DNA from: Candidatus Kirkpatrickella diaphorinae
GTDB taxonomy: Bacteria > Pseudomonadota > Alphaproteobacteria > Acetobacterales > Acetobacteraceae
NCBI RefSeq assembly: GCF_025736875.1
Contig: NZ_CP107052.1
Location: 360,001 to 424,000, forward strand
Direction of reading: 5' to 3'
DNA length: 64,000 nucleotides
In this document: positions 43,259 through 49,850 of the stretch, in pieces
Position numbering within the stretch: the first letter of the stretch is position 1
How the letters are laid out: every line of letters starts with the position of its first letter
Program-made: the position numbers and the translations under genes
Notes under the pieces: model-generated
Databases searched by the model: none
What the model saw: only the letters and a program-made list of their open reading frames with translations
Told to the model about the DNA's origin: nothing

Positions 43259-45010
43259 CGAAGCTGGCGCGGATTGATTTGCCCGTGGTAGGCTTCCGTC
43301 CTCAATATGGGCGTGATGTGGACGGCCGTGGTTTCCCTGCCGATTTGCCCGTGGTAGGCTTTCCCCCCCGCGTGGGACACCTGCGCGGTTGCCGTGGTTT
43401 CCCTGCCGATTTGCCCGTGGTAGGCTCGAAAAGCCCTGTACTGTGCGTTCAATTCTGCCGTGGTTTCCCTGCCGATTTGCCCGTGGTAGGCTTAATGTGA
43501 CCTCATTATCTGAGAAAGTCAGGCCGTGGTTTCCCTGCCGATTTGCCCGTGGTAGGCTAGTGCCACAAGACCGCTTGTGAACAGCTTAGCCGTGGTTTCC
43601 CTGCCGATTTGCCCGTGGTAGGCTGTCCACCGCACCAGATCAGTGGACTCCCAAGCCGTGGTTTCCCTGCCGATTTGCCCGTGGTAGGCTTGATTACCTG
43701 ACATTCACGGATGATAATAAGCCGTGGTTTCCCTGCCGATTTGCCCGTGGTAGGCTTGAGGTCCTTGGGGTCCAGTGTCACCCTTGGCCGTGGTTTCCCT
43801 GCCGATTTGCCCGTGGTAGGCTTTATCACCACGGGTAATCGTAATGCCTCCAGCCGTGGTTTCCCTGCCGATTTGCCCGTGGTAGGCTTGCAGGTGGGTG
43901 CAGGCGGTGCGCCGGATCGCCGTGGTTTCCCTGCCGATTTGCCCGTGGTAGGCTTGGCACGCGTTTGAAATGACATGACGGAGTGCCGTGGTTTCCCTGC
44001 CGATTTGCCCGTGGTAGGCTTCGACATGATGTTTACTTACACGGAATAGGGCCGTGGTTTCCCTGCCGATTTGCCCGTGGTAGGCTTCAACCTCACTGCG
44101 AATAATGCGACTTGAAGCCGTGGTTTCCCTGCCGATTTGCCCGTGGTAGGCTTCGCCCACCCAACTATTCAGATCTGGAATGGCCGTGGTTTCCCTGCCG
44201 ATTTGCCCGTGGTAGGCTGAGACGGTGATCCCGTTCCAGATAAAGTGGGCCGTGGTTTCCCTGCCGATTTGCCCGTGGTAGGCTACGCAGTATGGTGCGT
44301 TCATTGACGGAAAAGCCGTGGTTTCCCTGCCGATTTGCCCGTGGTAGGCTCAGACGCATAGGTAATGTCGTCATGATGCCGCCGTGGTTTCCCTGCCGAT
44401 TTGCCCGTGGTAGGCTGTGAGGTCAGTTGAGGATTTCTATATCGGAGCCGTGGTTTCCCTGCCGATTTGCCCGTGGTAGGCTAGTCACTCATCTCTGTCA
44501 TATCCAGAATGGGCCGTGGTTTCCCTGCCGATTTGCCCGTGGTAGGCTTGCTTTTCTGAGTTAGCTCGGACAGCCCCCGCCGTGGTTTCCCTGCCGATTT
44601 GCCCGTGGTAGGCTGTCCATTCATCCTCATCAGCGTCTTTACATGCCGTGGTTTCCCTGCCGATTTGCCCGTGGTAGGCTGAAACAGTTATTCCGTTCCA
44701 GACAAAATGAGCCGTGGTTTCCCTGCCGATTTGCCCGTGGTAGGCTACGGCTTGAAGAACACCCGGATCACCCTTAGCCGTGGTTTCCCTGCCGATTTGC
44801 CCGTGGTAGGCTGTCAGGACGTGGAAATACGTCCCGAAGATGGCCGTGGTTTCCCTGCCGATTTGCCCGTGGTAGGCTTTTCTCCATCAATGACATTCAT
44901 CATGAGGAGCCGTGGTTTCCCTGCCGATTTGCCCGTGGTAGGCTTCTGCACTGTTAATTTTACTGATAACAATCGCCGTGGTTTCCCTGCCGATTTGCCC
45001 GTGGTAGGCT
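43259..45010 (+). CRISPR. Type II-C CRISPR array, 27 repeats and 26 spacers
   Basis: There are 26 intact 36-bp repeats, starting at 43325 and then every 66 bp to 44975-45010. All looked identical; each begins GCCGTGGTTTCCC and ends CCCGTGGTAGGCT. A 27th, degenerate repeat lies at 43259-43294, where only the last 19 bases are conserved. All 26 spacers are exactly 30 nt. The plus strand is the crRNA strand: it aligns with Neisseria and Campylobacter II-C repeats (TCCCT...ATTTGC core), and the tracrRNA anti-repeat at 49467-49490 is its complement. The array thus runs toward cas2, opposite to the cas operon. Each repeat ends TGGTAGGCT, a weak extended -10 at the place where Neisseria repeats carry a promoter. 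Confidence 0.98.
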
Positions 45011-45033: not shown

Positions 45034-45077
45034 TTGCTGTGATTTCCGCGCTTTTAACCGCGCGGAAATCACAGCAA
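45034..45077. repeat. 18-bp perfect inverted repeat at the cas2/array junction
   Basis: The left arm 45034-45051 (TTGCTGTGATTTCCGCGC) and right arm 45060-45077 are exact reverse complements with an 8-nt loop. The right arm includes the last codons and TGA stop of cas2. There is no strong T run on either side, so it is a weak terminator candidate for the convergent cas and array transcripts. It also fills most of the 58 nt where a leader would be expected. Confidence 0.75.
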
Positions 45078-45398
45078 AACCATCTGAGAGGCGCCGACTC
45101 GTTCAGTTTTTGGCGCAAGGCCAAGCATGAGTTCCATGCGTCCATATTGCTTGTCCGTTATCTGAAGCGTCCGCACGCTCCCTTCCTTGGGCAATTGAAG
45201 GCGGACTCGCTTCGTGTGTTTCTCAACAGCATCCTGCCCGCGACAGATGCGCGCATAAACGGAATATTGCAGCATCATAAAACCGTCATCTCTGAGGAAA
45301 TTCCGGAAACGCGTTGCGCCTCTTCGTTGCTCCTTGGATTTGACGGGCAAGTCGAAAAACACCATCAGCCACATAAAGCGGATATCCTCGGCCTTCAT
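45069..45398 (-). CDS. cas2: CRISPR-associated endoribonuclease-fold protein Cas2
   Basis: A 109-residue Cas2 of the type II kind. It has the N-terminal MWLMVFFDLPV strand with its conserved Asp, followed by the FRNFLRDDGFMMLQYSVYAR ferredoxin-fold helix and strand. With Cas1 it forms the spacer-integration complex. It starts 6 nt after cas1 ends and stops within the inverted repeat beside the array. Confidence 0.95.
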   Translation of the reverse strand: MKAEDIRFMWLMVFFDLPVKSKEQRRGATRFRNFLRDDGFMMLQYSVYARICRGQDAVEKHTKRVRLQLPKEGSVRTLQITDKQYGRMELMLGLAPKTERVGASQMVLL

Positions 45399-45404
45399 CG
45401 CGCG

Positions 45405-46301
45405 TCAGCGGGCCTTCATGGCCCATTGCGGCACTTGCAGGAGGGCCGCGCTGTTGAATTCCATGGCGCGGACCATCGCCATGGCGACATGTTCCGTCGC
45501 GGCGAGGATCGTCATTTTCTCCTTGCCGATCACGGCCGTTTTGGTAAGGACGCCACTCATGAAGCGTCGGTCTTCGACAGTCATCTCATCACGGTCTCCC
45601 TCCGGCACACGCTCACGCGCCATTTTGTCCACGAAGGGGCGGAAAGGTTCGATCAAATCATCAATGAGGTTAAAGGCATTTGTTCGGGACGCGTGATGCA
45701 CGCCAAATGCGGGCAGAAGCCCGGAGGCGACGCAGGCACGCGCGATGGCCGCGCGCACAACGGCATAACCGTAATTTAAAAGCGCATTGCGTCGGTCCGT
45801 CTCATTCCCCCGTGTAAAATCCGTAAACAGGTCAGACCAGTAAATGCGCGCCGCCTGCGCTTCCAGATTATCAGGATCACCGGAATGAACACGTTCCGCC
45901 ATGGAAAATAGAGCTTCCGCATAGCGTCCTTCAAGCTGTGAGAGGAGGCCCGCCTGATTGCGGATTTTCGCGACGACGAGATTTTGCCAGAGACGCTTTT
46001 TGAGAGGCTGGCTGATGTTGATCTGCGTCTGGGCAATATGGGCCTGGGCATGGTGCTGATGGAAGGAGAGGAGGACGCCAGCCGGGTGGTGCCGCCCATC
46101 CGGCACAATCATCGCGACGCCAGCCTCTGCAAGGGCGGAAAGGAGGGTGCCTGTCACGCTGACTTGCGGGGTATCGAGGATGAGCCAGGCAACATCCTCG
46201 ATGGCCAGAGACACCTCACCATCATCCTGTGCGACGATGAGTTGATTGTCCCGAAAATTCAGTCGAGCGGGTTGCGAGATGTGCACGCCTCTCCATGCCA
46301 T
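45405..46301 (-). CDS. cas1: CRISPR integrase Cas1 (type II)
   Basis: A 298-residue type II Cas1 that integrates new spacers. The beta-sheet N-domain (MAWRGVHISQ start) is followed by the helical catalytic domain with Glu147 (LEAQAARIYW), His202-His203 (FGVHHASRTNAFNL) and Asp214/Glu218 (DDLIEPFRPF). It begins inside the 3' end of cas9 (43-nt overlap) and is followed 6 nt later by cas2. No csn2 or cas4 is present, which places the locus in subtype II-C. Confidence 0.96.
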   Translation of the reverse strand: MAWRGVHISQPARLNFRDNQLIVAQDDGEVSLAIEDVAWLILDTPQVSVTGTLLSALAEAGVAMIVPDGRHHPAGVLLSFHQHHAQAHIAQTQINISQPLKKRLWQNLVVAKIRNQAGLLSQLEGRYAEALFSMAERVHSGDPDNLEAQAARIYWSDLFTDFTRGNETDRRNALLNYGYAVVRAAIARACVASGLLPAFGVHHASRTNAFNLIDDLIEPFRPFVDKMARERVPEGDRDEMTVEDRRFMSGVLTKTAVIGKEKMTILAATEHVAMAMVRAMEFNSAALLQVPQWAMKAR

Positions 46302-49462: not shown

Positions 49463-49466
49463 ACTT

Positions 49467-49563
49467 GGCAAATCGGCAGGGAATCCACGGTAACAGAGTT
49501 ACCTAAATTTCTCTGTGAAGGATTATCCCTCGTTGGGCAACCAACGGGGGAGATTCCTTTTTT
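49467..49563 (+). ncRNA. tracrRNA, transcribed away from cas9
   Basis: The anti-repeat at 49467-49490 (GGCAAATCGGCAGGGA then TCCACGG) is complementary to the first 24 bases of the crRNA repeat except one internal mismatch and the end. It is followed by a perfect 6-bp hairpin GGTAAC-AGA-GTTACC (49489-49503), or the alternative ACAGAG/CTCTGT (49493-49516). A strong terminator stem of 10 bp comes next (49527-49536 with 49541-49550, GCAA loop), an outer AAGGA/TCCTT pairing, and six T (49558-49563). The expected length is about 97 nt. Strand and ends are inferred from these elements; no expression data are available. Confidence 0.88.
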
Positions 49564-49850
49564 AAGCATCCAAAAAAACCAATAATCATGATGTCTTTAT
49601 GCCTTGAGTGTATCTTCACTTCTATTTTTCTTACCTCAGTTTTGCCCCGCGTCAAAGGGCCTCAGCCTGAACGAATATTGTTGAAATCCGCGTTCGATTT
49701 GTCGTCGCCAAATCTCATCAGACTTCTGCGCAGCGTTCATGTCAGAGGGATTGATGCGAGCGCGTGTTGCCAAAACGCAAAATGCCCCGGTCAAATGTCA
49801 GGCAGCGACGTGACGCCGCTGCCGTTGAACTGCCTTATCCGTCGCAATTT
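49564..49850. other. Intergenic region after tracrRNA
   Basis: 287 nt with no supported gene. It separates the CRISPR locus from the ureide genes, whose last stop is at 49851. Confidence 0.4.

Follow-up and report, generated by a model that had tools for sequence, protein, structure and literature searches.

Two similar spacers in a type II-C CRISPR array of Candidatus Kirkpatrickella diaphorinae probably stem from diverged versions of one gene

Introduction

The closest described counterparts of the locus reported here are the type II-C CRISPR-Cas9 systems of the Neisseria/Campylobacter kind. According to the excerpted text of PMC12080349, new spacers are inserted at the last repeat in II-C systems, and the first repeat is the oldest one and is often mutated. 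With these systems our locus shares the cas9-cas1-cas2 set, a divergent predicted tracrRNA, a degenerate first repeat, a 36-nt repeat and 30-nt spacers; nothing essential was seen to differ, and the array has a repeat sequence of its own. Closely related repeats occur in the II-C array of Bombella apis (PMC12282179, available in part) and in II-C arrays of further relatives (G374, G169, G210, G101 and G030), mostly with a 66-nt period, and no spacer is common to the relatives' arrays and the present one among the 75 compared. As to what spacers target, a marine survey (PMC6401485, in its excerpted text) matched spacers and viral genes many-to-many, with several spacers on one gene, and found methyltransferases 4.7-fold over-represented among the targets and tail fibre genes hit less than expected (0.7-fold).

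A first-pass annotation of the present array had drawn attention to spacers 15 and 22 as separate acquisitions from the same site of homologous protein-coding genes. Here we describe the locus, the similarity of the two spacers, the search for their donors and the explanations that have to be weighed.

Results

A type II-C locus with 26 spacers

The locus sits in the window, that is, the whole stretch of 64,000 nucleotides that was analysed (bases 360001-424000 of a 2.18-Mb genome that forms one contig); its features are collected in Table 1. The spacer numbering of the first-pass annotation is correct for a 26-spacer array. After the degenerate first repeat all 26 full 36-nt repeats are identical. 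The effector scored 606 bits with the Cas9 model TIGR01865 against a cutoff of 100, Cas1 scored 292 bits with TIGR03639 and Cas2 73.8 bits with TIGR01573, and the best PADLOC models of the latter two were Cas1_II and Cas2_II. In a check for csn2 and cas4, the three neighbouring ORFs scanned were an aminotransferase, an alcohol dehydrogenase and a 110-aa ORF without assignment. The locus is a type II-C CRISPR-Cas9 system.

A structured RNA was predicted at 49466-49580 (z -4.85); an anti-repeat adjoins the cas9 start and opens the predicted tracrRNA on the plus strand. In the predicted duplexes with this RNA the plus strand of the repeat reached -49.2 kcal/mol against -11.7 kcal/mol for the opposite strand. 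Because the predicted pairing of the plus strand is far stronger, the crRNAs would be the plus-strand spacers, and any 3' PAM would therefore come 3' of the plus-strand spacers; orientation and tracrRNA are thus both predicted features of the locus. At the 5' end of the transcript stands the degenerate first repeat, a trait of type II-C; its predicted pairing gave -20.5 kcal/mol, against -49.2 kcal/mol for the array repeat, and this weak pairing is in line with the II-C rule set out in the excerpted text of PMC12080349. As new spacers enter at the last repeat by the same rule, spacer 15 should be older than spacer 22.

Past the last CRISPR repeat, a long inverted repeat (45036-45075) extends to the end of cas2 and overlaps the cas2 stop; by eye it has no clear T run on either side.

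Table 1. Features of the CRISPR-Cas locus in the window and of one related array
Feature	Position	Strand	Remarks
CRISPR array (36-nt repeats, 26 spacers each 30 nt long)	43259..45010	+ (crRNA sense)	sense taken from the predicted tracrRNA duplex
Degenerate first ('extra') repeat, oldest end of array	43259..43294	+	16 of 36 positions differ from array repeat; weak tracrRNA pairing; PMC12080349 (excerpted text)
Spacer 2	43361..43390	+	resembles RVG.LRGYGNA(I/V) site of C5 DNA methyltransferase gene; 24-27/30 in 44 IMG/VR contigs, all picked by degenerate pattern
Spacer 8	43757..43786	+	minus reading KGDTGPQGP (collagen-like)
Spacer 15, older pair member by the II-C rule	44219..44248	+	minus reading HFIWNGITV
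Spacer 22, younger pair member by the II-C rule	44681..44710	+	minus reading HFVWNGITV
Spacer 23	44747..44776	+	minus reading KGDPGVLQA, register as spacer 8; 14/30 to spacer 8
cas2	45069..45398	-	PF09827, TIGR01573
cas1 (NMENI type)	45405..46301	-	PF01867, TIGR03639
cas9, 1055 aa	46259..49426	-	TIGR01865 606 bits; PF13395
Predicted tracrRNA with anti-repeat, hairpins and U run, running divergently from cas9	49466..49564	+	approximate ends
G374 array, near-identical repeat, 37 spacers	L144 3770-6248

Similarity and codon pattern of spacers 15 and 22

The coordinates of both spacers, their alignment over 30 nt and the seven differences that the first-pass annotation had given were all borne out: aligned in the same register, the spacers are identical at 23 of 30 positions and differ at positions 3, 6, 9, 12, 23, 27 and 30. 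The 26 spacers form 325 pairs, and the runner-up among them in same-register agreement reached 16/30. The chance of at least 23/30 is about 4e-9 per pair, which gives 1.4e-6 expected over 325 pairs. The pair was likewise an outlier among 75 spacers of six related arrays (26 here and 49 from five other genomes), with 23/30 in DNA and a peptide BLOSUM62 score of 53, the next best being 30.

Six of the seven differences occupy the same codon phase (p 0.0064 by a hypergeometric test over three phases), and when seven substitutions were placed at random in 100,000 trials, 1.5% left some open frame with no more than one amino-acid change. These phase statistics (p 0.006-0.015) are modest, because seven differences hold little information. 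The minus reading HF(I/V)WNGITV proposed earlier, with mostly silent changes and one Ile/Val change, held up, and its frame is open in both spacers. That proposal had named a single frame and left unmentioned the plus frame, which shows the same wobble phase and reads ETVIPFQIKW in spacer 15 and ETVIPFQTK* in spacer 22, with Ile/Thr and Trp/stop differences. Since it carries a stop codon in spacer 22 as well as the Ile/Thr change, the plus frame is the weaker reading. The letters of the two spacers thus favour the minus strand as the coding strand, which is not proven.

Search for donors of the pair

When 2.9 million IMG/VR contigs were searched with the full degenerate peptide patterns of both readings, no exact match was obtained. 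With BLASTN against 50,697 phage records, spacer 15 hit 59 and spacer 22 hit 19, none of which covers 80% of the spacer. With the whole array, 64 phage records were matched, and none of the 40 listed falls on the pair; among plasmids, a Tistrella record resembling a related array and one short match were seen, and no donor of the pair. In the genome itself, spacers 15 and 22 are absent outside the array. Apart from the own array, two pattern searches of 397 family genomes hit one and three loci, which were judged unrelated; L098-L100, from the plus reading in these genomes, were so judged from their ORFs. BLAST of all 26 spacers against the same 397 genomes (E 0.05) gave no match to the pair among the first-look candidates that were scored. 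The genome collection, searched with the minus reading only, gave one locus, L012 (its contig is shared with L003), where that reading falls in a 33-codon frame; it was taken as chance. The donor search that the first-pass annotation had called for thus yielded neither a shared gene family with a common PAM nor exact matches to unrelated loci. The lack of a donor in viral contigs, phage records, plasmids, 397 family genomes, the genome collection and the own genome does not by itself exclude donors. Because these searches found none, we infer rather than observe the phage origin of the pair, the identity of the gene and the PAM used.

Looser patterns gave 8, 14 and 9 loci in the viral contigs, which make 28 distinct look-alikes with 16-24/30 identity to one or other spacer. 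In five of the 28 (L163, L165, L166, L206 and L207) an ORF of at least 100 aa contains the minus reading, and in nine (L013, L014, L016, L154, L155, L158, L162, L164 and L202) such an ORF contains the plus reading, several of these loci being mutual copies and having 18-24/30 and 19-23/30 to the two spacers; TVIPFQIK is found in the plus reading at L013, L014, L016 and L202. The look-alikes do not favour the minus strand. As all of them were selected by pattern, they neither name the gene nor settle the strand, and none is taken as a donor.

One of these look-alikes gives a lead. At L163/L165, HFVWNGITA occurs in a 515-codon frame adjoining head-tail genes, and a 61%-identical viral relative has TQMFIWNG at the same place. 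The tail-fibre-like family sought from L163/L165 gave 11 matching phage records, only at E 0.05-0.1, and matches in 31 of 200 family genomes, only at E 0.001-0.1, with the motif absent among the alignments listed. A tail-associated structural gene as the target of the pair is a lead only; by analogy, the tail-fibre figure in the excerpted text of PMC6401485 would speak mildly against a tail fibre.

Other spacers of the array

The site resembled by spacer 2 was also found in three family genomes (25-26/30). One look-alike gene that was scanned matched PF00145; it lies on a 37.8-kb contig with terminase-like, portal-like and helicase-like genes, as read from their translations. The spacer 2 look-alikes have A at 3' position 7 in all 43 readable flanks, where the conserved protein motif also fixes that codon.

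Spacers 8 and 23 have TCACCCTT in common in the same register. They are possibly another pair, from collagen-like tail genes, and their DNA match alone could be due to chance. Matches of spacer 8 in mycobacteriophage tail genes were attributed to Gly-X-Y repeats. Spacer 10 matches GC-rich genes in many family genomes and spacer 24 matches G371 at 27/30; both may be chance matches.

A candidate PAM from a related array

The Cas9 that accompanies the G374 array is 60% identical to the Cas9 here. Five of the 37 spacers of that array match plasmids of acetic acid bacteria at 28-30/30 (eight records read), with Komagataeibacter, Novacetimonas, Acetobacter and Kozakia as hosts; spacer 25 alone matches three plasmids, at 30, 29 and 28 of 30. 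Judging from these plasmids, the bacterium that carries the present array is probably an acetic acid bacterium too. At 3' positions 5-7 the eight sites read CCA, CCA, CGA, TGG, ACA, CCA, TCA and CCA, that is, A at position 7 in 7/8, C or G at position 6 in 8/8 and C or T at position 5 in 7/8. These eight come from 225 matched records, 30 of which were listed. The other matches include two further Komagataeibacter records and about 200 records of small enterobacterial plasmids, from E. coli, Shigella and Klebsiella; those listed among the latter are matched by another G374 spacer, at 90.6% over 32 bases.

The flanks suggest a 3' PAM near N4(C/T)SA for the G374 array; by analogy it may also hold for the Cas9 here and for the pair. 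The array's own repeat reads TGG at 3' positions 5-7, so A at position 7 would tell target from self. One plasmid site, with TGG at these positions, is an exception for which we have no explanation.

Lone repeats elsewhere

A lone CRISPR-repeat-like element lies outside the window (L005 1499-1538; G000:C1:1506344-1506383). Over 25 nt (L005 1504-1528) it is predicted to pair with the tracrRNA anti-repeat free of mismatches, at -53.9 kcal/mol against -49.2 kcal/mol for the array repeat. A small ORF, lipoprotein-like by eye and without a Pfam match, follows some 75 nt downstream of it. The sister genome G001 carries the 40-nt block unchanged between diverged flanks, and the would-be guide bases are not fully conserved. 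In G001 no match to the Cas9 here was found, and array and repeat searches gave only the lone-repeat match. The element loosely recalls ectopic repeats that have reportedly been published. It also loosely recalls the scaRNAs in the excerpted text of PMC13431127, and it is stranger than the pair of spacers 15 and 22. Single repeat-like copies, GCCGTGGCTTCCCTGCCGATTTGC, were found at L142 and L143 (G272 and G295, of one genus), with identical flanks and about 65 nt from contig ends; they are either broken arrays or further lone repeats.

Discussion

We consider it very probable that spacers 15 and 22 go back to two uptake events, separated in time, at one and the same site of a protein-coding gene that invading DNA, most likely that of tailed phages, carried in two diverged versions. 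Spacer 15 would be the earlier uptake, and spacer 22 would have followed seven spacers later. The simplest account of the common register would be that the acquisition machinery picked the same PAM beside a constrained stretch of protein, and the seven differences would reflect silent divergence between these versions of the gene, together with a single Ile/Val change. In Cas9 systems, mismatches in the PAM-proximal third of the guide make it unlikely that a target is covered. Since differences 23, 27 and 30 fall in that third, neither guide is likely to cover the target of the other, and each crRNA would probably be effective on its own variant only. A PAM with about two fixed bases leaves, by estimate, some thousands of sites in a 40-kb phage. 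With that number of sites, one coincidence in 325 pairs is unremarkable when donors share genes, and still less so if sites differ in ease of uptake. There is a slight chance that the second acquisition was helped by a partial match of crRNA 15 to the diverged invader, in which case the array would have come to contain paired alleles of one guide that jointly cover the silent variation at a constrained protein site.

Other origins of the similarity have to be weighed. A single element with two diverged copies of a gene, such as paralogues or repeated domains as in tail fibre modules, might have given both spacers; the similarity at the same site and the synonymous pattern fit this equally well, and no donor was found that would separate one element from two. 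The seven spacers between 15 and 22 point to an interval between the acquisitions, if the II-C rule in the excerpted text of PMC12080349 applies, and the simple account with two donors needs no paralogue, so that we regard a single donor as unlikely. That pure chance made the spacers alike hardly deserves belief: no point in support was found, and the expectation of 1.4e-6 over all pairs stands against it. Spacer duplications do occur in CRISPR arrays, which would speak for one spacer being a decayed copy of the other, but seven of 30 positions have changed here while the 26 full repeats are without any change, and six of the seven differences share one codon phase. A decayed duplicate is thus very unlikely indeed, as the first-pass annotation had held. 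Since duplication is so unlikely and the divergence of the spacers is of the coding type, with similarity beyond chance, its reading of separate acquisitions from homologous coding sequences is well supported.

The strand of the gene is a matter apart. If the gene lay on the plus strand, its coding sequence would end within the site in one variant, and the story of acquisition would be the same. The wobble phase is identical for this reading, and the plus frame lies in long ORFs in more of the look-alikes than the minus frame (9/28 vs 5/28); against it are the stop in spacer 22 and the Ile/Thr change, as the minus frame has no stop and an Ile/Val change only. We hold a plus-strand gene to be improbable.

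The pair agrees with the excerpted text of PMC6401485 in that several spacers fall on one gene, and spacer 2 resembles a site in a methyltransferase gene as do targets of that survey. The survey deals with metagenomes, whereas here two variants of one site stand in one array. The pair is real, had been read correctly in outline and is an ordinary outcome of CRISPR memory, which leaves the understanding of CRISPR immunity unchanged. The pair can be read as a fossil trace of two meetings with related forms of one invader, and it gives a peptide handle, HF[IV]WNGITV, together with a possible PAM, by which invaders of this bacterium that have yet to be sequenced may be traced.
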